NCBI RefSeq assembly: GCF_002914585.1
Contig: NZ_PDDM01000012.1
Span: 1 to 64,000, forward strand
From: Pseudanabaena sp. BC1403
GTDB taxonomy: Bacteria; Cyanobacteriota; Cyanobacteriia; Pseudanabaenales; Pseudanabaenaceae
Length of the DNA: 64,000 nucleotides
Reading direction: 5' to 3'
Positions 45,258-56,737 of this stretch are shown piece by piece. Below the pieces are notes generated by a model. That model saw only the letters and a list, made by a program, of their open reading frames with translations. It did not search any database and had not been told where the DNA came from. The position numbers and the translations under genes were made by a program. Every line of letters begins with the position of its first letter. Position 1 is the stretch's first letter.

Positions 45258-46249
45258 TCTACGCAGAGCTTCTATCATTACTTAGTCAAGGCGCTGTGGT
45301 CGTGGCAACGGTAATTAGCACTAAGGGTTCTGTCCCGCGAGAGGTGGGCGCGAAAATGCTAATTACCTGCGATCGCTGCATTGATACGATCGGTGGTGGT
45401 GCAGGAGAGGCAAAGGTAATCGTTCAAGCAAGGGAAGTCCTACAAACGGGGGAGAAAAGGCGGATAGAAATTGACCTAACTGGATCGCCCAAGCGTCAGA
45501 CTGAGGGAGTTTGCGGTGGTTGGATGGAGATCCTTTTGGAGCGATGGCAGGGAGATGCGGCGATCGCGATCGCGCAGCAGATACTGACAGAATTAAAATT
45601 AGGGCGAGCTCTTACTTTGGTTACTCCTTTTGGTGATGGATATCCTTCCTTGATTGAGGAAAAAGGAGAAAGGAAAAAGGAAAAAGATTCGGAGGCTTTT
45701 ATCAAGGAAAAAGATTTGGAGGTTCTTATTGAGGTTTTGGAGCCTGAGCCGATGTTGCTGATTGTGGGGGCGGGGCATGTGGGGGAGCAGCTTGCGCGGG
45801 TCGCGCATTTGATCGGTTTTCAGATTGCGATTCAGGATGATCGTCCTGAATGGGCAAACTCAGAGAGATATCCACAAGCTGCTTTTATCTATTCCAATAT
45901 TGAGCAAGCTTTGGAGGAACTCTCAAACCATTCAAGTCTTCATGTAGCTTTGGTAACGCGAGGCTATCGTTATGATTTGGATGCTTTAATGGCTTTACTA
46001 AATCGCGATTTACCCTGTGCCTATATCGGTATGATTGGTAGTGAGAGAAGGGTGATGCAGGTATACGAGCAAACTAAGTTAATGGGAATCTCTGAGGATA
46101 AACTTAAATCTATCTATGCGCCGATTGGTCTAGATATCGGTGCTTTAACTCCTGCGGAGATTGCGATTAGCATTGGCGCGGAGTTAATCATGCGGCGGCG
46201 TGGTGGTAATGGGCGATCGTTATCGGCAAGTTTGCGTAACCCCAAATAA
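45254..46249 (+). CDS. xdhC: XdhC, molybdenum cofactor insertion factor for xanthine dehydrogenase
   Basis: A 331-residue XdhC/CoxI-type protein: N-terminal ATVISTKGSVPREVGAKM, IGGGAGEAKV and VCGGWMEILLE, then a Rossmann-like XdhC_C domain (LLIVGAGHVGEQLARVAH, YIGMIGSERR, APIGLDIGALTPAEIAISI). A Lys/Glu-rich linker (about 133-160) joins the two domains. It binds sulfurated Moco and delivers it to XdhB. ATGA overlap with xdhB. The coding end (NPK-stop) forms part of the hairpin at 46238-46288. Confidence 0.93.
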   Translation: MIYAELLSLLSQGAVVVATVISTKGSVPREVGAKMLITCDRCIDTIGGGAGEAKVIVQAREVLQTGEKRRIEIDLTGSPKRQTEGVCGGWMEILLERWQGDAAIAIAQQILTELKLGRALTLVTPFGDGYPSLIEEKGERKKEKDSEAFIKEKDLEVLIEVLEPEPMLLIVGAGHVGEQLARVAHLIGFQIAIQDDRPEWANSERYPQAAFIYSNIEQALEELSNHSSLHVALVTRGYRYDLDALMALLNRDLPCAYIGMIGSERRVMQVYEQTKLMGISEDKLKSIYAPIGLDIGALTPAEIAISIGAELIMRRRGGNGRSLSASLRNPK

Positions 46250-46288
46250 GAGTGGCGGCGCTTTGCGCCGCCACTCTTATTTGGGGTT
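46238..46288. terminator. Perfect 24-bp-arm hairpin that includes the xdhC stop codon
   Basis: Arms 46238-46261 and 46265-46288 are exact complements around TTT, apex GTGGCGGCGC. The left arm encodes the last codons and TAA of xdhC (46247-46249), so the right arm is an inverted copy of coding sequence. Confidence 0.85.
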
Positions 46289-46315
46289 TTATGTCCTGAT
46301 TAAACCTTTTACACC

Positions 46316-46406
46316 AATTCACATAAGTGTTGTCACACTTATGTGAATTAAAAACCAAACCCCGTAAGGGTTTTAAAAGCACAAAATGGCTATGCCATTT
46401 TGTGCT
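46316..46406. repeat. Composite three-hairpin repeat, copy 2
   Basis: Hairpin P: AATTCACATAAGTGT - TGTC - ACACTTATGTGAATT (46316-46349). Middle: AAACCC-CGTAA-GGGTTT (about 46357-46375). Hairpin Q: AGCACAAAATGGC - TAT - GCCATTTTGTGCT (46378-46406). It has the same order and orientation as copy 1 at 37718-37811. Confidence 0.9.
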
Positions 46407-46453
46407 TTGGGATAAAAAGCTGCCATAATTGAGCTTAACTACAGCCTAACTTT

Positions 46454-47668
46454 ATGAGCGATCGCCTTCCAACCGATTCCATTAAAAGCACAGATAAATC
46501 TCTTGAAATATCAAGTTTATGTCATTCCTTAGATGGTTGTGTTTTGGTTGTCGATGACAATCCCACCAACTTGAGTGTATTGGTGAACTTGCTGCGAGAT
46601 GTGGGGCTGCGAGTATTGGTGGCAACTGATGGCGAAAGTGCGATCGAGCAGACTGAATATGTCAAGCCCGATCTGATCTTGTTAGATGTGATGATGCCAG
46701 GTATCGATGGCTTCGAGACTTGCGAACGCCTCAAGGCAAATCCTGATACTGTCAAGATTCCGATTATTTTTATGACCGCGCTCTCAGAAACAGTAGATAA
46801 AGTACGCGGTTTATCTTTGGGGGCTGTGGACTATGTGACCAAGCCATTCGATCATGAAGAAGTATTAGTCAGAATTCGTACCCATTTAACAATTACCAAA
46901 CAGCGACAGACGATCGAGTCCCAAAATCTGGAATTACAAACAGAAATTTGCGATCGCAAACGGGCTGAAGAATCATTAACAATTTTTCTCCACGCAGTTT
47001 CCCATGACTTGCGAAATCCTGTAACAGGTTTATTGATGGTTTTGGATAATTTAGCGAAGACAGCAAGCAGCGCTGACACAAATATTCTGTTACCAAAATC
47101 TACGCTTGAGAGAATGCAACAAAGTGGCAATCGACAGTTAGCATTAATCAACTCCTTGCTGGAGTCCCATGTGAACGATGTCCATGGAATTATCATTCAT
47201 CCTCAATCTGTGGCGATCATGGAGGTCATCCAAGCTGCGATCGATGATCTGCAACCTCTTTTAGATAAGGAAGAAGCAAAAGTTATTGTGCAAATCGCCC
47301 CTGAATTACCACTTGTTTTCGCTGATGCTGCTCATGTTTGTCGAGTCTTTCAAAATCTGATTGCTAATGCGATTAAACATAATCCACCAAATCTCAAACT
47401 CACAATTTCGGCAAAGATAAATCCTGAGAATAATCTCCTTTGCGAGGTTTCTGATGATGGCGTAGGTATGACAAATGAACAAAGTGAACATCTATTTGAA
47501 CTTTACGCTCAGGGTAAGCATCAAACTAAACTTAATCGGCGATCGCTCAGTCTTGGCTTAGGGCTGTACATCTGTCGCCAAATTGTCCAAGCTCATGGTG
47601 GTGCGATCGGGGTAACTGGTGAGATTAATATCGGTTCCCGCTTTTGGTTTACATTACCAATGTCATAA
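46454..47668 (+). CDS. Receiver-histidine kinase (REC-HisKA-HATPase)
   Basis: A soluble 404-residue protein with an N-terminal receiver (about 28-150; phosphoacceptor Asp78 in LILLDVMMPG, Lys in YVTKPFD), a HisKA domain (His in HAVSHDLRNPVTG, about residue 187) and a HATPase (about 290-400: NLIANAIKHNPP, DDGVGMT, LGLGLYICRQIV). A receiver before the kinase suggests it is controlled by another kinase. No response regulator with an output domain is adjacent. The start at 46454 is 8 bp from a weak ribosome site. Confidence 0.9.
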   Translation: MSDRLPTDSIKSTDKSLEISSLCHSLDGCVLVVDDNPTNLSVLVNLLRDVGLRVLVATDGESAIEQTEYVKPDLILLDVMMPGIDGFETCERLKANPDTVKIPIIFMTALSETVDKVRGLSLGAVDYVTKPFDHEEVLVRIRTHLTITKQRQTIESQNLELQTEICDRKRAEESLTIFLHAVSHDLRNPVTGLLMVLDNLAKTASSADTNILLPKSTLERMQQSGNRQLALINSLLESHVNDVHGIIIHPQSVAIMEVIQAAIDDLQPLLDKEEAKVIVQIAPELPLVFADAAHVCRVFQNLIANAIKHNPPNLKLTISAKINPENNLLCEVSDDGVGMTNEQSEHLFELYAQGKHQTKLNRRSLSLGLGLYICRQIVQAHGGAIGVTGEINIGSRFWFTLPMS

Positions 47669-47674
47669 AAAACC

Positions 47675-47713
47675 AATTTTAGTTGGCGTGGCTTTGCCAT
47701 GCCAACTAAAATT
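47675..47713. terminator. Hairpin between convergent genes
   Basis: AATTTTAGTTGGCGTGGC - TTT - GCCATGCCAACTAAAATT, 18-bp arms with one G-T pair. It separates the kinase gene from the radical SAM gene (stop at 47726). Confidence 0.8.
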
Positions 47714-47725
47714 GTTACTAGTTCC

Positions 47726-50296
47726 TTAACGCATCGACTCGCGATGGACTTTGACTAATTTAACTTCATCTTCTTCAGCAAGATACTTATTCATCATGTA
47801 AACAACATACTCAGGTTTGAGATTGCTGTCTGGCTTGCAACTACCCATGAAATGAATTTTCGGAAACTCAGGATCGGGATTAGTGACATTAATTGCAAAA
47901 ATGCGATCGCGTAATTCCAACATTTGATTTCGTCCCGATTTTGAGACTTTCGGCATTTGGATCGAAGTTGCGGCGAGGACACAGTAACCTGCGCCTTCGA
48001 GCAAATCCATAATGTCGGCAGCATTACGCTCTTTGGGCGTAATAAAAGCAAGCGTTAACGTATATTCCGCAACTTCGAGAATGGAATCTAAGGATGGTGA
48101 ATGGACTTCCACTTCTTCGATCGCATAAATTGGTAAATCATCATCAAGTTCCGCACTAAAGCGTTGTTGAAACTCGGTAATGGGAATATGCGCCGTTAAT
48201 TCAAAATCCACAAATTCGGCATTGCTGGTTTGACCGAGAGGCAAAGCCTTAGCAATGGAAATACGCGGTAATGGGTTAAAACCCTCAGTATGGGCGACAG
48301 GTATCGCCGCACGACGGGCGGCACGTTGGAAGAAACGATGTAAATCCAGATGGGAAATCAGGCTCATGTCGCCGAGCTTGCCAAACTTGAGACGGACGCG
48401 CTGTACTCTGGGCGGAACAATCGGCTTCTCCAAAGAAATCGTAGGGATTTCTGGCGGTGGAATCACGATGTTATGTCCAAACTCAGGGCCACAGACTCCA
48501 CATTCCGAGCAGCCACCAAAGGAGCAATCTGGAATGGTTTGTGCAGCGATCGCCCTTTCCCAGTCTTCGATCAGCCATTGCTTATCGATACCCGTATCAA
48601 CGTGATCCCAAGGCAAATCATCTTGCATTTTTAACGATGGCGCATCCCATACGAGATCCGCCTCTGCGATCGCCTGCGTCCATGCTCCAAAAGCTTTCTC
48701 GGTATTCTCAAACCATGAATCCATACCCGCGCCCAGTTGCCATGCCCGATACACGACTTTACCTAAGCGGCGATCGCCTCGTCCGACAAAATCTTCCATC
48801 GCGCTGATGCGAATATCGGTATAGTTGACTTTGACATTAGATAAACGACGAAACTCTTGGCGCAATAATTTCTGCTTCTGCACAAAGTCGCCACTAGACA
48901 CAGTATGCCATTGGAAAGGGGTATGGGGCTTGGGAGTGAAATTAGAAATGGTGATATTCACCGATAGTTTCTTGCGCCCTTTTTCCGAACATTCATTCTG
49001 CAACCATGCCACCGTATCGACAATCCCAATTACATCTTCATCGGTTTCCGTCGGCAAGCCAATCATGAAATAGAGCTTCACCTTGTCCCAACCTTGGGTA
49101 TAGGCAGTTTTAATCCCTTGCAGCAGTTCCTCATCGGTCAAGCCCTTATTAATCACATCGCGCAAACGCTGCGTACCTGCTTCGGGCGCAAAGGTCAGCC
49201 CCTGCTGTTGACGACCATCACCACTGCGTAGCATATGCGCGATATTCTCATCAAAGCGATCGACTCTCTGGCTCGGCAATGAGAGAGTTATATGCTCATC
49301 TTTAAAGCGATTTTTAATCTGTACGCCCACCGATGGCAACGCCAGATAATCGGAACAAGAGAGAGAAAGTAAAGAGAACTCGTTATAGCCTGTTTCGCGC
49401 AGTGCTTTCTCAATCGTATCCACAACCTTCTCAGGATCGACATCACGGGCAGGACGAGTGAGCATCCCTGGTTGGCAAAAACGACAGCCACGAGTGCATC
49501 CGCGCCGAATTTCGATAGTCAAGCGATCGTGAACTGTCTCGACTAAGGGAACTAAACCAATACTATGCTCTGGCATCGGTGTGGCAACCCTACGCAAGGC
49601 GCGAGGCGAGACATCACTGCGATTGGGTGCGATCGCGCCAGTCTTGATATCCATGTCATAAAATTCAGGCACATATACGCCATCAACTTCATTAGCCAGC
49701 GCTAACAGGGTTTCACGGCGAGTTTTGCCTGCTAATTTGGAATCTTTAAGAACTTCGCCAATTTCAGGTAATAATTCTTCCCCATCACCGAGTGCAAAGA
49801 AATCAAAGAAGTCGGCATAAGGCTCAGGATTAGAGGTCGCAGTCTGTCCCCCAGCAAAGATTAAAGGACATTCTTCAATACTCAATTCACTACGTTCTTG
49901 CCATGTCATCGGAATATTTGCCAGATCCAACATTTCTAAAACATTAGTTGCGCCTAGCTCATAACTGAGGCTAAAGCCTAAAACATCAAATTCCCGTAGC
50001 GATCGCTTTGACTCAACGGCAAATAAATCAGTGTTAGTTTCGCGTAATTTTACCGAGAGGTCGGGTGCGGGGAGATAGGCGCGATCGCATAGCTGCCCAT
50101 CCTTAGAATTAATAATGCTGTAGAGGATGATATGCCCTAAGTTGGACGCGCCCACCTCATAAATCTCAGGATAAGTTAGTGACCAGCGCACGATCGCATT
50201 TTCCCAAGGTTTTCGCACTGCACCAAACTCGTTGCCTAAATAACGGGCTGGTTTAAGGATTTCGGAATTTAGTAACTGTTCGACGGGTACGGGCAT
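47726..50296 (-). CDS. Radical SAM protein fused to DUF2344 (TIGR03960/TIGR03936 type)
   Basis: The 856-residue protein has an N-terminal region with a B12-binding-like fold (about 60-200), a radical SAM core with the cluster motif CTRGCRFC (Cys267, Cys271, Cys274), then a C-terminal DUF2344 domain (about 640-840; RLKFGKLGDMSLISHLDLHRFFQRAARRA). A Cys-rich CSFGGCSECGVCG linker near 595-610 could bind another metal site. The family is widespread in cyanobacteria and Firmicutes; its substrate is unknown, with tRNA or rRNA modification suggested for relatives. The first 100 codons are duplicated at 52039-52337. Confidence 0.88.
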   Translation of the reverse strand: MPVPVEQLLNSEILKPARYLGNEFGAVRKPWENAIVRWSLTYPEIYEVGASNLGHIILYSIINSKDGQLCDRAYLPAPDLSVKLRETNTDLFAVESKRSLREFDVLGFSLSYELGATNVLEMLDLANIPMTWQERSELSIEECPLIFAGGQTATSNPEPYADFFDFFALGDGEELLPEIGEVLKDSKLAGKTRRETLLALANEVDGVYVPEFYDMDIKTGAIAPNRSDVSPRALRRVATPMPEHSIGLVPLVETVHDRLTIEIRRGCTRGCRFCQPGMLTRPARDVDPEKVVDTIEKALRETGYNEFSLLSLSCSDYLALPSVGVQIKNRFKDEHITLSLPSQRVDRFDENIAHMLRSGDGRQQQGLTFAPEAGTQRLRDVINKGLTDEELLQGIKTAYTQGWDKVKLYFMIGLPTETDEDVIGIVDTVAWLQNECSEKGRKKLSVNITISNFTPKPHTPFQWHTVSSGDFVQKQKLLRQEFRRLSNVKVNYTDIRISAMEDFVGRGDRRLGKVVYRAWQLGAGMDSWFENTEKAFGAWTQAIAEADLVWDAPSLKMQDDLPWDHVDTGIDKQWLIEDWERAIAAQTIPDCSFGGCSECGVCGPEFGHNIVIPPPEIPTISLEKPIVPPRVQRVRLKFGKLGDMSLISHLDLHRFFQRAARRAAIPVAHTEGFNPLPRISIAKALPLGQTSNAEFVDFELTAHIPITEFQQRFSAELDDDLPIYAIEEVEVHSPSLDSILEVAEYTLTLAFITPKERNAADIMDLLEGAGYCVLAATSIQMPKVSKSGRNQMLELRDRIFAINVTNPDPEFPKIHFMGSCKPDSNLKPEYVVYMMNKYLAEEDEVKLVKVHRESMR

Positions 50297-50311
50297 AACT
50301 AATAATTAATT

Positions 50312-50542
50312 TTAGGGTTTGATAGTAGCTAAGTGTTCGGTTAAGGAGGTTTGAATAATAGTTTGGGGAGTTACGCCTAAGCGGTTGGCTTCGCGATCTA
50401 TTAGCTCAATCATCCAGATAGGCAGATCGATAGTAAGTCTTTTTTGAGTACTGAAAGGACGCTTGGCTTTAGATAGATCGAGCATTTCGATAATATCTTC
50501 TTCTCCATCGTCAAATTTCTGGTCAAATTCCTTGGCGTTCAT
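50312..50542 (-). CDS. brnA: BrnA-type antitoxin
   Basis: The 76-residue product starts at MNAKEFDQKF. Residues 35-76 form a ribbon-helix-helix (STQKRLTIDLPIWMIELIDREANRLGVTPQT). The N-terminal 30 acidic residues likely wrap the toxin. It overlaps the toxin gene by 20 bp and lies 15 bp from the radical SAM start, on the same strand, so read-through between them is possible. Confidence 0.85.
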   Translation of the reverse strand: MNAKEFDQKFDDGEEDIIEMLDLSKAKRPFSTQKRLTIDLPIWMIELIDREANRLGVTPQTIIQTSLTEHLATIKP

Positions 50543-50795
50543 ATAGGGCAACCTCTTGTATGCGCGATCTGCGGACAGAAATAATCCGAATATTTTGATC
50601 TCGGTAGGCAATAACTCCAGACCAATGTTTGTTATTTATTTTACCAATAATTACAAAGCGTGTTTCACCTTGGATTTTGCTGGGAATTTCTAGCAAATCG
50701 AGATCGTTCCATAATTCTTGAGCCTTAACAAAATCAATTCCATGTTTAACAAGATTAGATTGACTTTTACTCTCATCATATTCAAAGTTCCTCAT
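50523..50795 (-). CDS. brnT: BrnT-type toxin (RNase)
   Basis: A 90-residue BrnT-like RNase of the RelE fold class. Motifs: FEYDESKSQSNLVKHGIDFVKAQELW (the canonical BrnT N-terminus), GETRFVIIGKINNKHWSGVIAYRDQNIRIISVRRSR with the conserved Arg pair, and a C-terminal YERQ. All main residues seem intact. First gene of brnTA. The palindrome GTAGA-TC-TCTAC upstream is a candidate operator. Confidence 0.88.
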   Translation of the reverse strand: MRNFEYDESKSQSNLVKHGIDFVKAQELWNDLDLLEIPSKIQGETRFVIIGKINNKHWSGVIAYRDQNIRIISVRRSRIQEVALYERQGI

Positions 50796-50796
50796 G

Positions 50797-50808
50797 GTAG
50801 ATCTCTAC
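50797..50808. promoter_or_regulatory. Candidate BrnA operator
   Basis: GTAGATCTCTAC (5-bp arms, 2-bp centre) immediately upstream of the brnT start codon. Placement fits antitoxin autorepression; not proven. Confidence 0.4.
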
Positions 50809-51011
50809 ACTAGTTTCTATCAAAAGCTATCCTATGTTTTATTATTCACTTTTGTTGCCAAATTTTGAACATCATTGACCTGCAATTCTAAATTCAGAAC
50901 GATTTTGTTCCATTTCAGCGACGAGCAAAAAAATATCAAGAATTATAAACTTCTCTTAGAGTAAGGGTTTTAGAACTGTCAAATTTGGAATTGCTAATGC
51001 AATATATACTC

Positions 51012-51818
51012 CTAAAATAGAGTCAACTGTTCCGAACCATCCAAGCCAATCTTGCGGGGCATTCTTTTTTTGTCGTCTTTCAATCCGCCTAGATTTTTGA
51101 TGTTTTCTAGAATTTTTGGGATGCAGTATTCAGTCATTTCCTCTCTAATCTTTTGCGAATCAAAGCGAATAGTTCGCCAGCCTACAGTTTCAAGATCATT
51201 GTCTCTAAGATTATCTTCTCTAATGCGTTCTTTGGATGAATGCCAAGTGTCACCATCAGTTTCTGCATCTATTTTCCCTTTTTCGCAGTAAATAGCAAAG
51301 TCAAGGAGATAGGTTTTATCTTTGATTTTCTCTTCCTGTTGACGCTCCGCATCTATCGAATAACGCTTGAATTCAGCCCAAAGTTTATCTTCTAATGGAC
51401 TTTCGTCCCAAAGATCATTAATTTCGGCTGCGTTTACTAGCTTTTCCCAAGTTGTAGGAATGAACAATATGCGTCTGAGCCTACGGCTATAGATTGGCTG
51501 CGGTAGCTTTTCCATAGGATGTATATTTATTTTGTAATACTGCTTTTGACTTTTGGGGTTTTGCGGTTCATCAGGAAAAAGCTCATATCTGAAAACTGAC
51601 CGAATTGACTTTATGGAAGCATAGTAATTGATAGCAAATGCCTCATCACGAAAAATCTTTGGCTGATAAATGGCTAACCATTTTGGTTCCCATACATTTC
51701 GTTGTTTAAGACGCTCCACTTGATCGGAGGGAATTCGATACCAATTTTGCTCACAGGCAATTTTCATGTCTGATTTTGTTGGCATAATCACTACAAGCAC
51801 TTCGCCACGCTTTGCCAT
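51012..51818 (-). CDS. Vsr/DUF559-type endonuclease with C-terminal sliding-clamp motif
   Basis: A 268-residue protein. Residues 140-232 match the Vsr/DUF559 branch of the PD-(D/E)XK nucleases: Glu143 (PLEDKLW), Asp173 (LLDFAIY), Glu186-x-Asp188-Gly (AETDGDTWH) and VGWRTIRFDSQKI. Residues 1-135 form a distinct N-terminal domain not recognised, with WEPKWLAIYQPKIF. The last five residues, QLTLF, match the bacterial beta-clamp binding consensus QL(S/D)LF. That suggests the nuclease works at replication forks or repair sites. It lies 216 bp from brnTA; that gap holds no gene. Confidence 0.72.
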   Translation of the reverse strand: MAKRGEVLVVIMPTKSDMKIACEQNWYRIPSDQVERLKQRNVWEPKWLAIYQPKIFRDEAFAINYYASIKSIRSVFRYELFPDEPQNPKSQKQYYKINIHPMEKLPQPIYSRRLRRILFIPTTWEKLVNAAEINDLWDESPLEDKLWAEFKRYSIDAERQQEEKIKDKTYLLDFAIYCEKGKIDAETDGDTWHSSKERIREDNLRDNDLETVGWRTIRFDSQKIREEMTEYCIPKILENIKNLGGLKDDKKRMPRKIGLDGSEQLTLF

Positions 51819-51860
51819 TTTCTGTCTAGCCCCAATTGTTAAATAATCATAATTTACTAA

Positions 51861-52046
51861 TCACTCATCATCAATACCAATTGATCGTAACTTTGCCAAT
51901 AATAAATTTACCTGTTTCTCAGCATCGTCAGCCCGTTTTCGCTCGAAATTAGCACGCTGGTTTTCTAAATCAGCCTGTTCATCTGTAGTGAGATAGTGAT
52001 CGCCTTTCTCATTAAACCAACTTAAACTTCACGCCCGAAGCGATCG
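51861..52046 (-). pseudogene. Uma2 nuclease 3' remnant
   Basis: On the minus strand this stretch encodes a sequence very like the C-terminal 60 residues of the neighbouring Uma2 gene (SDRFGREV, then SWFNEKGDHYLTTDEQADLE, ending LLLAKLRSIGIDDE). A one-base deletion after GREV breaks the frame and creates a stop. The upstream part is replaced by radical SAM sequence at the HIP1 site 52039-52046. Confidence 0.75.
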
Positions 52047-52337
52047 CTTTGACTCAACGGCAAATAAATCAGTTTTAGTTTCGCGTAATTTTGCCGAGAG
52101 GTCGGGTGCGGGTAAATAGGCGCGATCGCATAGCTGTCTATCCTTAGAATTAATAATGCTATAAAGGATGATATGCCCCAAGTTTGATGCGCCAACCTCA
52201 TAAATTTCAGGATAAGTAAGCGACCAACGCACGATCGCATTGTCCCAAGGTTTACGAACTGCACCAAACTCGTTGCCTAAATAACGGGATGGTTTGAGGA
52301 TTTCGGAATTCAGTAACTGTTCTACGGGTACGGGCAT
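52029..52337 (-). pseudogene. Duplicated 5' fragment of the radical SAM/DUF2344 gene
   Basis: The 102-codon reading frame is nearly identical to the first 100 residues of the 47726-50296 protein (MPVPVEQLLNSEILKPSRYL onwards; about six substitutions). DNA similarity starts sharply at the HIP1 site GCGATCGC (52040-52047) and ends at the start codon. It cannot be functional, as it lacks the radical SAM core. The start retains an ATG, so a short peptide could still be made. Confidence 0.85.
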
Positions 52338-52403
52338 GATTTCACGACAATATGAGCTAAACCTATTTTACATTTAGCGCGATCGCGATTTCGTAGTGAC
52401 GTT

Positions 52404-53111
52404 TTACTCTTCAGAAATACCGAGCGATCGCAATTTTGCTAATAACAGATCAATTTGTTCTTGTGCAGTATTTGCCCGTTGCCGCTCAATATCAGCCTGT
52501 TCATCAGTAGTGAGATAACGCTGTCCACGCGCATCGAACCAGCTTAAAACTTCACGACTAAAGCGATCGCTGGGCAACACACAGCGCCCAATCCCTAAAC
52601 CAATCTCTGGCATCCACAATGGTTCACCAATCTGTAATTGATAACCGCCATCAACTAATTTGTAAACCTCAAATGGCAAATGTCCATCACGCCGCCAGAA
52701 TTGAGGATTGTAAATTACATAATATTTAACACCTAATTTTCGGTAAATATCTAATTTCTTCTCATATTCACCACCATAGGTATGAGATACAACTTCTAGC
52801 GTCAAAATCGGTGCAGTATCAAATTCTTCCCACATCACATAGCTACTCCGCGAGCCGCCATTTTTACGCCGCTCCACACCTAAGCTCAAAAAGCCATCAG
52901 GAACTACTGGCACTCTCGGACTTGCGCCAGTGGTGTGATAGATACCCATATCGACACCAAAGTACCAATCGTCGCGATTTTTCCAAATATACTCCAGTAA
53001 GAATAATAGTAAATTCGGTAAAAAATTCTGGTCTTCGTTATCCACAGGCGTATCGTCAGAATCGGGTAATTCGTCACTGGTGGGGAGATGTTTGAGATCG
53101 ATTTGTAGCAT
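52404..53111 (-). CDS. Uma2 family putative endonuclease, long form
   Basis: A 235-residue Uma2 (DUF820) protein of the PD-(D/E)XK class. Motifs: VPVVPDGFLSLGVERR (catalytic Asp), ILTLEVVSHTYGGEYEKKLDIYRKLGVKYYVIYNP (Glu and Lys), then an Arg/Asp-rich coiled C-terminus (TTDEQADIERQRANTAQEQ). Uma2 genes are greatly expanded in cyanobacteria; their role is unknown. The remnant at 51861-52046 is its closest relative nearby, implying an earlier tandem duplication. Confidence 0.85.
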   Translation of the reverse strand: MLQIDLKHLPTSDELPDSDDTPVDNEDQNFLPNLLLFLLEYIWKNRDDWYFGVDMGIYHTTGASPRVPVVPDGFLSLGVERRKNGGSRSSYVMWEEFDTAPILTLEVVSHTYGGEYEKKLDIYRKLGVKYYVIYNPQFWRRDGHLPFEVYKLVDGGYQLQIGEPLWMPEIGLGIGRCVLPSDRFSREVLSWFDARGQRYLTTDEQADIERQRANTAQEQIDLLLAKLRSLGISEE

Positions 53112-53279
53112 CGGAATAACCTCAAAAGTATCTTAGCTATCTGGTTGGTATTATAGGCGATCGCAAAATGAGTAAAATGAGACCATCACCAAAAATGCGG
53201 TTTTTTATGGCATACAGTTCTTGTGTAATCAGTTGCTAATCTTGTCATAATTTGTAATTTGTATAGGAGGCGATCACAT

Positions 53280-53852
53280 ATGGTTTTAGCAGCTACTAAG
53301 CGATATACCGCGTCAGAATATATAGCTCTAGAGGACAAAGCCGAATTTAAAAGCGAATTTATTAACGGAGAAATTATCCCAATGGCAGGAGCTTCCGCAA
53401 ATCACAATAAAATCGCCTTAAATGTGTGTCGGCTATTACCTCTAGCAATTGGCGAGCAAACCTATGAGATATTCATGAGTGATATGCGGCTATGGCTTCC
53501 TGAATATAATCGTTATACCTATCCTGATGTGATGGTGGTTTCTGGTGAGCCAGCTTTTGTTGATCAAAGACAGATGGAAGTTACTAATCCCTGTTTGATT
53601 ATTGAGATTCTATCTAGCTCCACCCAAGCCTATGATCATGACAGTAAATTTCGTCAATATCGCTCTATTCCTAGTTTTCGGGAATATGTTTTGGTTTATC
53701 AAAATGGCTATGAAGTTGATCACTATGTCAAGGAGTCGGAAGATCGATGGGTATTGATGACCTATAAGGGAGAAGAATCTGTGATTGAGTTGGTATCAAT
53801 GCGGATGGGAATCAGATTAAGAGATTTGTATAAGCGAGTGAAGTTTGACTGA
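53280..53852 (+). CDS. Uma2 family putative endonuclease, short form
   Basis: A 190-residue Uma2 protein. ATG at 53280 is preceded by AGGAGG at 53266-53271, so the start is secure. Motifs: YIALEDKAEFKSEFINGEII (Glu pair), RYTYPDVMVVSGEP (catalytic Asp), CLIIEILSSSTQAYDHDSKFRQYRSIPSFREYVLV (Glu and Lys-like). It lacks the coiled tail of the 52404 protein. Transcribed toward coaBC, 40 bp away. Confidence 0.88.
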   Translation: MVLAATKRYTASEYIALEDKAEFKSEFINGEIIPMAGASANHNKIALNVCRLLPLAIGEQTYEIFMSDMRLWLPEYNRYTYPDVMVVSGEPAFVDQRQMEVTNPCLIIEILSSSTQAYDHDSKFRQYRSIPSFREYVLVYQNGYEVDHYVKESEDRWVLMTYKGEESVIELVSMRMGIRLRDLYKRVKFD

Positions 53853-53892
53853 TCAACCGCTTTGTAAATCCGTAGAATAGCTGTAAGGAAGT

Positions 53893-55101
53893 ATGAGTCA
53901 TGTATTAATTGGAATATCAGGAGGCATTGCCGCCTACAAGGTTTGCGAAGTTGTTTCAAGCTTGGCAAAACACGGCATTGAAGTGCGCGTGATCTTAACG
54001 AAATCAGCGACAGAATTTGTCACGCCGCTTACTTTTGCCACACTCTCTCGCAAACCTGCTTATACCGATGCTGACTTTTGGCAGCCTAGCAATGGTAGAC
54101 CATTACATATTGAGTTAGCAGAATGGGCTGACATATTTTTGCTAGCACCAGTAACTGCCAACACCTTGGCGAAACTCTCTTATGGCATGGCAGACAACCT
54201 GCTCACAAATACAGTCTTAGCTTCTACTTGTCCGATTCTATTTGCGCCTGCGATGAATACGACTATGTGGCTCCAACCCTCTGTCCAAGAGAATTGGCAT
54301 AAATTATTACAAGATAATCGATATACAGCGATCGCACCGACGGATGGGATTCTCGCCTGTGATGCAGTTGGCACTGGAAGAATGGCGGAGCCAGAAATAA
54401 TTTTGGAATATTTAGAATCTTTTCTATTTACCAAGGGAAAACAAGATTTAAAAGGGAAGAAGATTTTAGTGAATGCTGGCGGAACTCGCGAATTTATCGA
54501 TCCTGTGCGCTTTATCGGCAATCCATCTACTGGTAAGCAGGGAATTGCGATCGCTAAAGCAGCCATGCATCGTGGCGCAAATGTTACGCTCATAACTGCC
54601 TCTAGTGTGTCTCTCTCTATGGGAGAGAGGCTAGGCATGAGGGTAGTTCGCACTGCCGCAGAAATGCACAAAGCCATGCTCGAAGAATTCCCCTTAGCTG
54701 ACATCACGATCGCAGCAGCAGCCATAGGTGATGTGCGATCGCAATTTCAGAGCGATCACAAGTTACCCAAATCAGAACTTCCTTTAAATCTAGAGCTAGA
54801 ATATATTCCCGATATTGTTGCCGATCTTGCCAGTCGTAAACGTCCTGATCAATTGCTAGTGGGATTTGCGGCTCAAACTGGGAATGAGTTAGAGGTCTTG
54901 TCGGCGGCAAAAGAGAAGTTAGCGCGAAAAGGGCTAGATGCGATCGCGGCTAATGCGGTTAATAGTTCTCAAACTGGGTTTGGCACTGATACCAATCAAG
55001 CCACATTTATCCATAAGAATGGCAACACCCAATCCACGCCCCTCTGCTCAAAATTAGAACTTGCCAATCGTCTATTCGATTTTTTGTTAACCAGTGATTA
55101 G
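53893..55101 (+). CDS. coaBC: Phosphopantothenoylcysteine decarboxylase / synthetase CoaBC (Dfp)
   Basis: Bifunctional coenzyme A enzyme: CoaC (residues 1-180) decarboxylates, CoaB (190-400) ligates cysteine to phosphopantothenate. Motifs: GISGGIAAYKVCEVV at the flavin site, HIELAEWADIFLLAPVTANTLAKL with the active His, APAMNTTMW substrate clamp, then VNAGGTREFIDPVRFIGNPSTGKQG and DITIAAAAIGDVR (CoaB). The 402-residue length is normal. Start ATG at 53893. Confidence 0.97.
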   Translation: MSHVLIGISGGIAAYKVCEVVSSLAKHGIEVRVILTKSATEFVTPLTFATLSRKPAYTDADFWQPSNGRPLHIELAEWADIFLLAPVTANTLAKLSYGMADNLLTNTVLASTCPILFAPAMNTTMWLQPSVQENWHKLLQDNRYTAIAPTDGILACDAVGTGRMAEPEIILEYLESFLFTKGKQDLKGKKILVNAGGTREFIDPVRFIGNPSTGKQGIAIAKAAMHRGANVTLITASSVSLSMGERLGMRVVRTAAEMHKAMLEEFPLADITIAAAAIGDVRSQFQSDHKLPKSELPLNLELEYIPDIVADLASRKRPDQLLVGFAAQTGNELEVLSAAKEKLARKGLDAIAANAVNSSQTGFGTDTNQATFIHKNGNTQSTPLCSKLELANRLFDFLLTSD

Positions 55102-55140
55102 AAAGAGTAGGGTCAATTCATGAATTGCCCCTACTCTTTC
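55101..55140. repeat. GTAGGGGCAATTCATGAATTGCCCCTAC-type repeat
   Basis: Arms 55101-55120 and 55121-55140 are reverse complements with one mismatch (T for G). The central part matches 12817-12852. It lies between convergent coaBC and the 55142-56737 gene and may terminate both. Confidence 0.8.
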
Positions 55141-55141
55141 T

Positions 55142-56737
55142 CTAGTTGGGTATAGTTGCTGGCTCTAGCCCTGTAGCTTTACCAAATTTACGAAGGCGAT
55201 CGCTTTCGGGTTCCATCCAAGCATAGACAAAATGACTAATGCAATTAATCTTTGGCTGTCTAGCCAATATAGCCCTCGTTTGGATTTCAAAACTAGGATG
55301 CCCATCAAATCCCTGTCCCCAAGTTCCTGCCAAAACTGGACAAACTAAAGTCTCAGGCGCTGATTGGCGGACAACTTCAGCGACCTGATCGGCAACACAG
55401 CTACCATCACTACAAAGTGCATAGGTCATCGGATGACGCTCCATGTTCTTGGGAAAACGATCCCAAGGCTGCATTCTTGCCTCAAAACGACCTGATTCAG
55501 TGCGATTACCATTGGGAAAGAAAACAGTGCCAATGGGAATATTATTTTGCTGAAGAGGAGCTGTGATTGTGTTTACAAAATTAATCACGCCTTTATAGGC
55601 ATGGTTCGTGGCGATATTCCAGAGTAAACCTTCCGCGATCGCAGCAGTTTCTCTAGGATTTTTAATATTTGTCGGTCTCACCTTAATGTTATCTGTTAGT
55701 TTCTTCTCAGTCTGAACCACATCATCAGCCGTCAGATCACCATTTTGGAGATAGATATCCATGAGTTCTCGAACAGTTTTATTGTCAATACTATTCAGCA
55801 AAGCTGTTCGCGAAGCTTTTCCATGAATCCATAGCTGCTTGACGTTATCAATCAACTCGCCAGTGGAATTGGTGGGATAGCGAACATAATCAAATACCAT
55901 TCCGTCGGGATTGCGTTGCATCAGCGCTTTGACTACCGATGTCAGATCAGCTTTGGCGATCACATTGTACGGATCGGCAAATAGATGATCAGCTTCATAG
56001 GCATCTTCATAAAAAGCTCGTCCATTACTAACTAAGCTGCGATCAAAATTGGTATTGGCAATACTATTTTCCCCTTTGCCATTAAGTGCTACAGCTCCCG
56101 AACGCCCCTTAATTTCGCTATAGCCATAGCCGAAATTCATCGCAAATGACCATCCATAAACTTTGATGCCCCTTGCTCTGCCGATCTCGATCGCTTGTTT
56201 CCACAGATCATAGTCCGCAGGTACTTCCCCAGCCTTGACCGACTCTTCCATCACCGATCGCCAAGGCGTAGGATTATCGGCAACAGGCAGTAACACCCGC
56301 CCATCATAAAAAACTTCGATAAAAACTTGGTTATAGCCACGATTAGCCATTTTGTCGAAAACATCTTCTAATACACCTGCTTTGACATCATTGGGATATA
56401 GCCGCAACCAAGTAGCTTGAGTTTGGGGTGTATTGCGATCGCGACAGGCTTGTAATTCTGATTTGTGTTTTTGAATAATCGCCTGATACTGAGCTTGGGC
56501 ATTTGGATCACGAGGATTTGTGACTAAAGCCGATTTTCGTAGTTCATGTTTTCGCAAAATTTCCGCAGTACCCACATCACAGGTGGGCTTGCCCCATAAA
56601 ATCTTGTCAGGTAATGCACCCGCGATCGCATTCCCAGTAAAGACTGTACTTAAACAACAAGTAAAAGAAGCGATCGAAAGCAAATTAAATTTATTAAGCG
56701 TTTTATTAATCTCTTTCTGGTTTATTTTATATTTCAT
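55142..56737 (-). CDS. Exported glycosidase-like protein (GHL10/DUF187-type TIM barrel)
   Basis: A 531-residue protein with a signal peptide (hydrophobic SIASFTCCLSTVFTGNAIAG). The central region has TIM-barrel strand motifs of the glycosyl-hydrolase-like family 10: YNQVFIEVFYDGRVLLP, RGIKVYGWSFAMNFGYGY, DPYNVIAKADLTSVVKAL and PDGMVFDYVRYPTN. That last motif usually carries an acidic residue near the active site. Substrate unknown; periplasmic polysaccharide or peptidoglycan is possible. No neighbouring enzymes suggest a pathway. Confidence 0.7.
   Translation of the reverse strand: MKYKINQKEINKTLNKFNLLSIASFTCCLSTVFTGNAIAGALPDKILWGKPTCDVGTAEILRKHELRKSALVTNPRDPNAQAQYQAIIQKHKSELQACRDRNTPQTQATWLRLYPNDVKAGVLEDVFDKMANRGYNQVFIEVFYDGRVLLPVADNPTPWRSVMEESVKAGEVPADYDLWKQAIEIGRARGIKVYGWSFAMNFGYGYSEIKGRSGAVALNGKGENSIANTNFDRSLVSNGRAFYEDAYEADHLFADPYNVIAKADLTSVVKALMQRNPDGMVFDYVRYPTNSTGELIDNVKQLWIHGKASRTALLNSIDNKTVRELMDIYLQNGDLTADDVVQTEKKLTDNIKVRPTNIKNPRETAAIAEGLLWNIATNHAYKGVINFVNTITAPLQQNNIPIGTVFFPNGNRTESGRFEARMQPWDRFPKNMERHPMTYALCSDGSCVADQVAEVVRQSAPETLVCPVLAGTWGQGFDGHPSFEIQTRAILARQPKINCISHFVYAWMEPESDRLRKFGKATGLEPATIPN

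Follow-up and report, generated by a model that had tools for sequence, protein, structure and literature searches.

The stretch of DNA analyzed here (the window) comprises the first 64,000 nucleotides of contig NZ_PDDM01000012.1 of Pseudanabaena sp. BC1403, whose assembly spans 5.51 Mb in 88 contigs with a completeness of 99.96 and a contamination of 0.1. This genome is referred to as G000, while the other G-numbers denote Pseudanabaena relatives. The locus of interest contains a full-length B12-binding radical SAM gene (radSAM), a BrnTA toxin-antitoxin pair, a nuclease-like gene, a fusion of a Uma2 3' end with a second radSAM 5' end, and an intact Uma2 gene (Table 1). The full-length radSAM matches TIGR03960 with 595.9 bits and also TIGR03936, together with the Pfam families Radical_SAM_N2, Radical_SAM, and DUF2344. 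Searches for a tRNA as an insertion site in 46000-56000 and for long repeats in 49900-52450 revealed no tRNA and no repeat besides the radSAM pair. The brnT-brnA genes end 15 bp ahead of the start codon of the full radSAM on the same strand (50297-50795), and the pair may now drive transcription of that gene. The order brnT-brnA before radSAM is kept in G020 and G009 and is found in pieces in G010.

Table 1. Features of the fusion locus in window coordinates; haplotypes A and B are the two gene orders described in the text.
Feature	Position	Strand	Basis or remark
radSAM, full-length, TIGR03960, 856 aa	47726..50296	-	ORF; HIP1 at 49999-50006
Haplotype-A cargo	50312..51818	-	Domain matches and relatives' gene order; gene order as in G020
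BrnA antitoxin	50312-50611	-	Haplotype-A cargo
BrnT toxin	50523-50795	-	Haplotype-A cargo
MTES_1575/DUF559 nuclease-like gene	51012-51818	-	Haplotype-A cargo
Uma2 3' end remnant	51861..52048	-	Stop codon 51861-51863; one base missing near joint
Junction word AGCGATCGCT	52039..52048	.	Includes HIP1 GCGATCGC at 52040-52047; crossover point inside word not fixable
radSAM 5' end, truncated pseudogene, 298 bp	52040..52337	-	ATG 52335-52337
ORF of radSAM fragment, 102 aa	52029-52337	-	Ends just beyond joint
radSAM upstream DNA, relatives' type	52338..52403	.	Precedes fragment instead of full gene
Intact Uma2, haplotype B	52404..53111	-	Sister of G019 Uma2; not parent of remnant

Sequence alignment of 52034-52337 with 49993-50296 revealed 92.1% identity over 304 bp, gap-free and with 24 mismatches, in agreement with the first-pass annotation, which had read the right half of the fusion as the 5' end of radSAM. 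Its reading of the left half as a Uma2 3' end was equally borne out by the homology of 51863-52048 to Uma2 3' ends. Left of the HIP1 octamer, the radSAM match fades to a few scattered bases, and the joint (52039-52048) shares the 10-bp word AGCGATCGCT with the full radSAM (at 49998) and the neighbouring Uma2 (at 52562). The two halves are not in frame with each other: the reading frame of radSAM closes with '-SLRA-stop' just beyond the joint, and the Uma2 remnant is one base short relative to the other Uma2 rows of the alignment. The junction is thus a real chimeric pseudogene, joined, as the annotation had proposed, within a word that contains HIP1. On the right-hand side, the radSAM homology passes the ATG at 52337 into DNA that lies upstream of radSAM in relatives and extends as far as 52390; judged from the alignment, the edge at the ATG is no duplication border.

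When 200,000 joints between radSAM and the neighbouring Uma2 were drawn at random, a fraction of about 5.5e-5 landed on a shared HIP1, and 1.5e-5 did so on matches of at least 10 bp. The rarity of the former means that the boundary is not a matter of chance, and the two rates together indicate a joint guided by a match, yet HIP1 need not have been favoured over other matches. HIP1 is the commonest 8-mer of the window, with an average spacing of 547 bp (626 bp across 1.42 Mb of the genome), and accounts for 14 of the 78 8-mer pairs that radSAM and the adjacent Uma2 share. Seven exact 10-mer pairs are shared by the same genes (two of them overlapping within one 11-mer), one with HIP1 and two with CGATCG. 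A microhomology event over 10 bp would produce such a joint.

Since the joint is known from a draft assembly of 88 contigs alone, we considered that two strains or regions were fused at a short repeat during assembly, which we regard as highly improbable. Only 10 bp are common at the joint, and an overlap of this length is too short for the usual assemblers. The joint also sits within a contig of 160 kb, and from one side of it to the other the identity to G015, G019, and G020 changes by just a few points; the completeness and contamination values given above likewise speak against an artefact, and a like structure is present in the separate assembly of G003. Among the 26 genus genomes searched, G000 included and with one genome per species, only G000 carries this joint.

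The first-pass annotation had named the neighbouring Uma2 as the parent of the left half, an assignment that the comparison of Uma2 genes rejected. The remnant is 89% identical to the Uma2 of G002 over 185 aligned columns, from which it differs by 7 changed codons, 10 silent ones, and one missing base, as against 73% over 164 aligned columns for the adjacent gene, whose BLAST match to the remnant covers 81 bp only (79%). In a tree of 12 Uma2 sequences, the remnant is sister to the G002 gene (support 99/97), while the adjacent Uma2 is sister to that of G019 (99/96). Forcing the remnant and the adjacent Uma2 into one clade costs 47.6 log units (p-AU 2e-6), whereas a wider clade of the remnant, the adjacent Uma2, and the G019 gene has a p-AU of 0.073, above the 0.05 cut-off. 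A Uma2 paralogue on contig C27 of G000, the 3' end of which matches 51863-52049 at 78% over 187 bp, was also tried as the parent and set aside as not the closest. At the octamer position, read on the coding strand from 11 aligned Uma2 genes, GCGATCGC is present in nine, GTGATCGC in G002, and ACGATCGC in G019. The claim that both parents carry the octamer hence stands for radSAM; the true Uma2 parent, now lost, probably carried it too, to judge from the nine of 11 genes.

For 23 of 25 relatives, the window proteins were mapped to the DNA ahead of radSAM; G021 and G024 were left out for want of a radSAM match, and the view in G008, G016, and G009 was limited by contig ends. This placement revealed two arrangements. 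A Uma2 of the 52404 type lies directly upstream of radSAM in seven of the 23 (G019, G002, G012, G005, G016, G014, and G022) and is second upstream in G017. The same position is taken by BrnTA and the DUF559 gene in G020, by BrnTA in G009, and by BrnTA in pieces in G010. The window joins both arrangements in series. Left of the joint, it follows the radSAM-BrnTA-DUF559-Uma2 tail haplotype, as in G020, with which 49400-51905 is collinear at 91.7% identity, including the last 45 bases of a Uma2 gene. Right of the joint, it follows the radSAM-spacer-Uma2 haplotype, as in G019 (52034-53156, 90.0%) and G002 (52034-53853, 85.3%). A search for a close donor of the cargo found none; its 91.7% identity to G020 is about the distance seen across the rest of the contig, so that no recent import tract is visible.

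The DNA ahead of the fragment's ATG is of the type that precedes radSAM in G019, G002, and G015 and the radSAM fragment in G003, while the full-length gene has other DNA upstream, with brnA 15 bp away. It is therefore the fragment, not the full gene, that has the more widespread upstream DNA. Within it, the block 52357-52390 is kept in G019, G002, G015, and G003 and reaches 97% identity in G020 and G012. This block of 34 bp contains a HIP1 octamer and, in several relatives, precedes radSAM or the Uma2 at 53259; it is a candidate promoter region of radSAM.

A tree of the 298-bp radSAM piece placed the fragment, the full gene of G000, and the genes of G019, G020, G015, and G013 in one group without inner resolution. 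The best tree holds the fragment together with G019 and G020 (support 61/46), and the p-AU values were 0.32 for the fragment with its own gene, 0.30 for the fragment with G019, and 0.42 for the own gene with G020. The piece is too short to tell the haplotypes apart, and the tree was set aside for this purpose. Comparison of the fragment with the full gene over 297 sites gave 23 differences. Four of the states concerned were seen in the fragment alone (two amino-acid changing, two silent) and three in the full gene alone (one changing, two silent), while at the other 16 sites both states are present in relatives. If all 23 differences had followed an in-place duplication that left the fragment unconstrained, and the full radSAM is assumed to take amino-acid changes at 5% of the neutral rate, 13.9 such changes would be expected on the fragment, against the two found (Poisson P 1e-4; P 0.002 when four are allowed). 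This speaks against a local duplication that then aged in place. The fragment lost its constraint recently, and from its few amino-acid changes we infer that it still functioned as a gene during most of the time it was separate and that the two copies come from two lineages united recently.

These results also bear on an origin by tandem duplication in place, in which unequal exchange between the HIP1 of radSAM and that of the adjacent Uma2 on a radSAM-spacer-Uma2 chromosome would have come first, with brnTA-DUF559 entering the first spacer afterwards. Such a course predicts the observed order and polarity of the fragments, and the radSAM tree leaves sister copies possible (p-AU 0.32). It needs sister copies at both ends, however, which the Uma2 side rejects (AU p 2e-6), and the fragment has too few amino-acid changes for it. 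Moreover, brnTA-DUF559 occupies the same place in G020 without any fragment, and to rescue it by letting a foreign haplotype replace the first copy afterwards costs further steps. We consider an in-place origin unlikely.

The joint is well explained as the scar of a recent inter-strain recombination between two haplotypes of the same Pseudanabaena chromosomal site, a reading to which we assign a probability of roughly two in three. Besides the gene orders, the Uma2 tree, the few amino-acid changes, and the fragment's upstream DNA, a fusion of the same two genes in G003 (described below) speaks for it. Against it stand the radSAM tree, which is compatible with the fragment and its own gene being sisters, the wider Uma2 clade at p-AU 0.073, the search for a close donor or recent import tract that found none, and the occurrence of the joint in G000 alone. 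Haplotype A would be radSAM-brnTA-DUF559-Uma2, with a Uma2 of the G002 type, and haplotype B radSAM-spacer-Uma2, with one of the G019 type. DNA with haplotype A would have entered a cell with haplotype B, or the direction would have been the reverse, and the exchange was probably completed in a single step. One crossover would have been homologous, within radSAM or beyond, and would leave no visible trace in the product; the other would have been illegitimate, with AGCGATCGCT as the common word at which the Uma2 of A became linked to the radSAM of B. A whole radSAM with the cargo would thereby be retained, while of B's radSAM only the initial 298 bp, still preceded by their original upstream DNA, would remain.

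This geometry is that of homology-facilitated illegitimate recombination (HFIR). As a candidate homologous anchor, radSAM provides more than 2 kb of homology left of the joint, although the crossover point is not visible. The full radSAM, the joint, and the neighbouring Uma2 have 10 bp in common, a length within the 3-10 bp of microhomology characteristic of HFIR; the true Uma2 parent probably had this match as well, given the octamer in nine of 11 Uma2 genes. The DNA replaced in the resident radSAM would be its 3' part, restored by the incoming copy, and nothing is visibly missing beside the insert. HIP1 most likely served here as microhomology rather than as a dedicated site, because it is the most abundant short repeat.

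The same product would result from two steps, with the foreign haplotype first integrated whole beside the resident one (a circular molecule that crossed over once in radSAM would be an example) and the DNA between the HIP1 of Uma2(A) and the HIP1 of radSAM(B) then deleted. The statement on HIP1 in E. coli in PMC4390886 may be counted in favour of this course, which nevertheless requires one more step and has no intermediate among the 26 genomes searched; we think it improbable.

A second fusion of a radSAM 5' piece with a Uma2 3' end was identified in G003 (L093:3566-3690; G003:C1 near 90704-90809). Here, a 106-bp radSAM piece, still accompanied by the upstream block, is found 4.3 kb ahead of the full radSAM, with other genes in between, none of which was found to be a BrnTA, DUF559, or Uma2 gene of the window types. 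At GCGATCG, the piece passes into CTTGGTGTTGATGAGTAA, a sequence from a Uma2 gene end; among the loci compared, this 18-mer, with at most 2 mismatches, occurs only at Uma2 ends and at the G003 joint. The two fusions thus involve the same two genes in the same order but different sites (GCGATCGT in the G003 radSAM), and the Uma2 piece in G003 is short. Across 80 cyanobacterial loci, many of which end at contig ends and in which direct matches less than 950 bp from the gene start were left out, a second direct radSAM 5' piece of more than 60 bp was found in two, G003 (L093) and Chamaesiphon polymorphus (L141). The latter carries a 69-bp duplicate (L141:4992-5060, 91% identity) about 1.1 kb upstream, with small ORFs between copy and gene, and this fragment is not bounded by HIP1; the site in front of radSAM may thus be a repeated insertion point. 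The radSAM rows of 20-22 bp in L122, L125, L130, and L144 were set aside as chance matches. In G009, an internal radSAM fragment of about 100 bp (G009:C245; L183:1250-1350) lies on a contig other than that of the radSAM start and overshoots the HIP1 used in the window by about 20 bp on the left, and is therefore not HIP1-bounded either.

The first-pass annotation had taken the joint as evidence that HIP1 acts as a recombination point and had called for a survey of duplications with HIP1 breakpoints. One joint does lie at HIP1, but the surveys gave no clear general excess and thus no demonstrated general role for HIP1 in recombination. The 2.11 Mb surveyed for local direct duplications yielded 117, of which 94 belong to the 1.42 Mb that came from G000 (about 26% of the genome). 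With the two rows of the fusion locus left out, HIP1 was found at 7 of 184 duplication ends in G000 against 34 of 2526 internal windows, a weak excess whose P of 0.013 is uncorrected and comes from ends that are not independent; in the relatives, the counts were 0 of 46 ends and 2 of 397 internal windows. Ends of aligned blocks (532 in total) showed 3 inside HIP1 (control 6.9), 6 within 3 bp (12.1), 24 within 6 bp (17.2, P 0.06), and 39 within 10 bp (24.2, P 0.005). Once the 41 ends at the G000 fusion locus were removed, the remaining 491 showed 2 inside HIP1 (control 6.1), 3 within 3 bp (10.6), 10 within 6 bp (15.0), and 21 within 10 bp (21.1), so that the 10-bp excess vanished. Pairwise terminal blocks shared a HIP1 in 14 of 383 cases against 332 of 19150 internal ones; five of the 14 are the G000 joint and four the adjoining spacer. 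Indels were surveyed as well (39 candidates, reduced to 32 by quality and to 28 by merging, which occupy 23 different places), and CGATCG was found at the joint of none of the 28 clean ones, a weak test since a shared word of at least 8 bp occurs in only one of them.

A 375-bp in-frame indel separates G000:C12 87265-87612, outside the window, from G019:C95 84600-84975. It lies between apparent PAS repeats, so labelled by eye, that share a linker encoded by TTAGCGATCGCAAA; HIP1 stands beside, not in, the best joint.

The counts bear on two broader proposals. In one, HIP1 (or CGATCG) would be a preferred, enzyme-assisted recombination site that shuffles cargo regions. The two radSAM/Uma2 fusions, at HIP1 or GCGATCG, the weak excess at G000 duplication ends, and an indication of site-specific recombination in PCC 7002, as conveyed in PMC4390886, are in line with it. 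The aligned-block ends without the fusion locus, the relatives' duplications, the clean indels (again, a weak test), and the radSAM fragments of G009 and Chamaesiphon all point the other way, and we hold this proposal to be quite doubtful, with HIP1 as a dedicated site unproven. Likewise with a slim chance of being correct is the proposal that HIP1 sites are preferred crossover points at which Pseudanabaena strains exchange accessory blocks upstream of conserved genes, leaving HIP1-bounded fragments such as the G000 and G003 fusions.

The locus shows how a BrnTA pair and a nuclease-like gene came to precede a conserved radSAM. Furthermore, a natural HIP1 joint and a second fusion in a relative make the old recombination idea testable by counting joints; the tally so far is one clear case (G000) and one short one (G003), with no general enrichment in the surveys. 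HIP1 is over-represented in many cyanobacteria and its role is described as open in PMC4390886, with no evidence linking it to homologous recombination. HIP1 at recombination joints is already in print there, and joins at short words are already known, while among the open-access titles retrieved none described a natural two-gene fusion at HIP1.

Several known systems resemble the locus. HIP1-associated excision was described in Synechococcus PCC 7942 and E. coli (Robinson et al. 1997, as cited in PMC4390886). There, as in G000, the joint lies at GCGATCGC between two copies, but excision took place between repeats on one cloned molecule, whereas the G000 joint arose naturally and links two genes that are unrelated and come from different haplotypes. 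Gupta et al. reportedly described an smtB deletion in 1993. Plasmid recombination in Synechococcus PCC 7002 (Akiyama et al. 1998, likewise as cited in PMC4390886) is also tied to a HIP1-based palindrome. That case concerns a plasmid and GGCGATCGCC, while the G000 joint is chromosomal, uses the 10-mer AGCGATCGCT, and gives no sign of repeated use of the site. HFIR has been reported in Streptococcus pneumoniae, Acinetobacter baylyi, and Pseudomonas stutzeri (PMC3240628), with 3-10 bp of microhomology at most joints (PMC3240628; also PMC6382021 for HFIR with 3-10 bp). Here, the host is a cyanobacterium and the event is read from a single product rather than observed. As would apply to the G000 locus, one side in HFIR can be homologous and the other joined by microhomology, and accessory genes are gained; HFIR generally reports a deletion, whereas in G000 the illegitimate joint lies inside the presumed anchoring gene itself and leaves a gene fragment behind.
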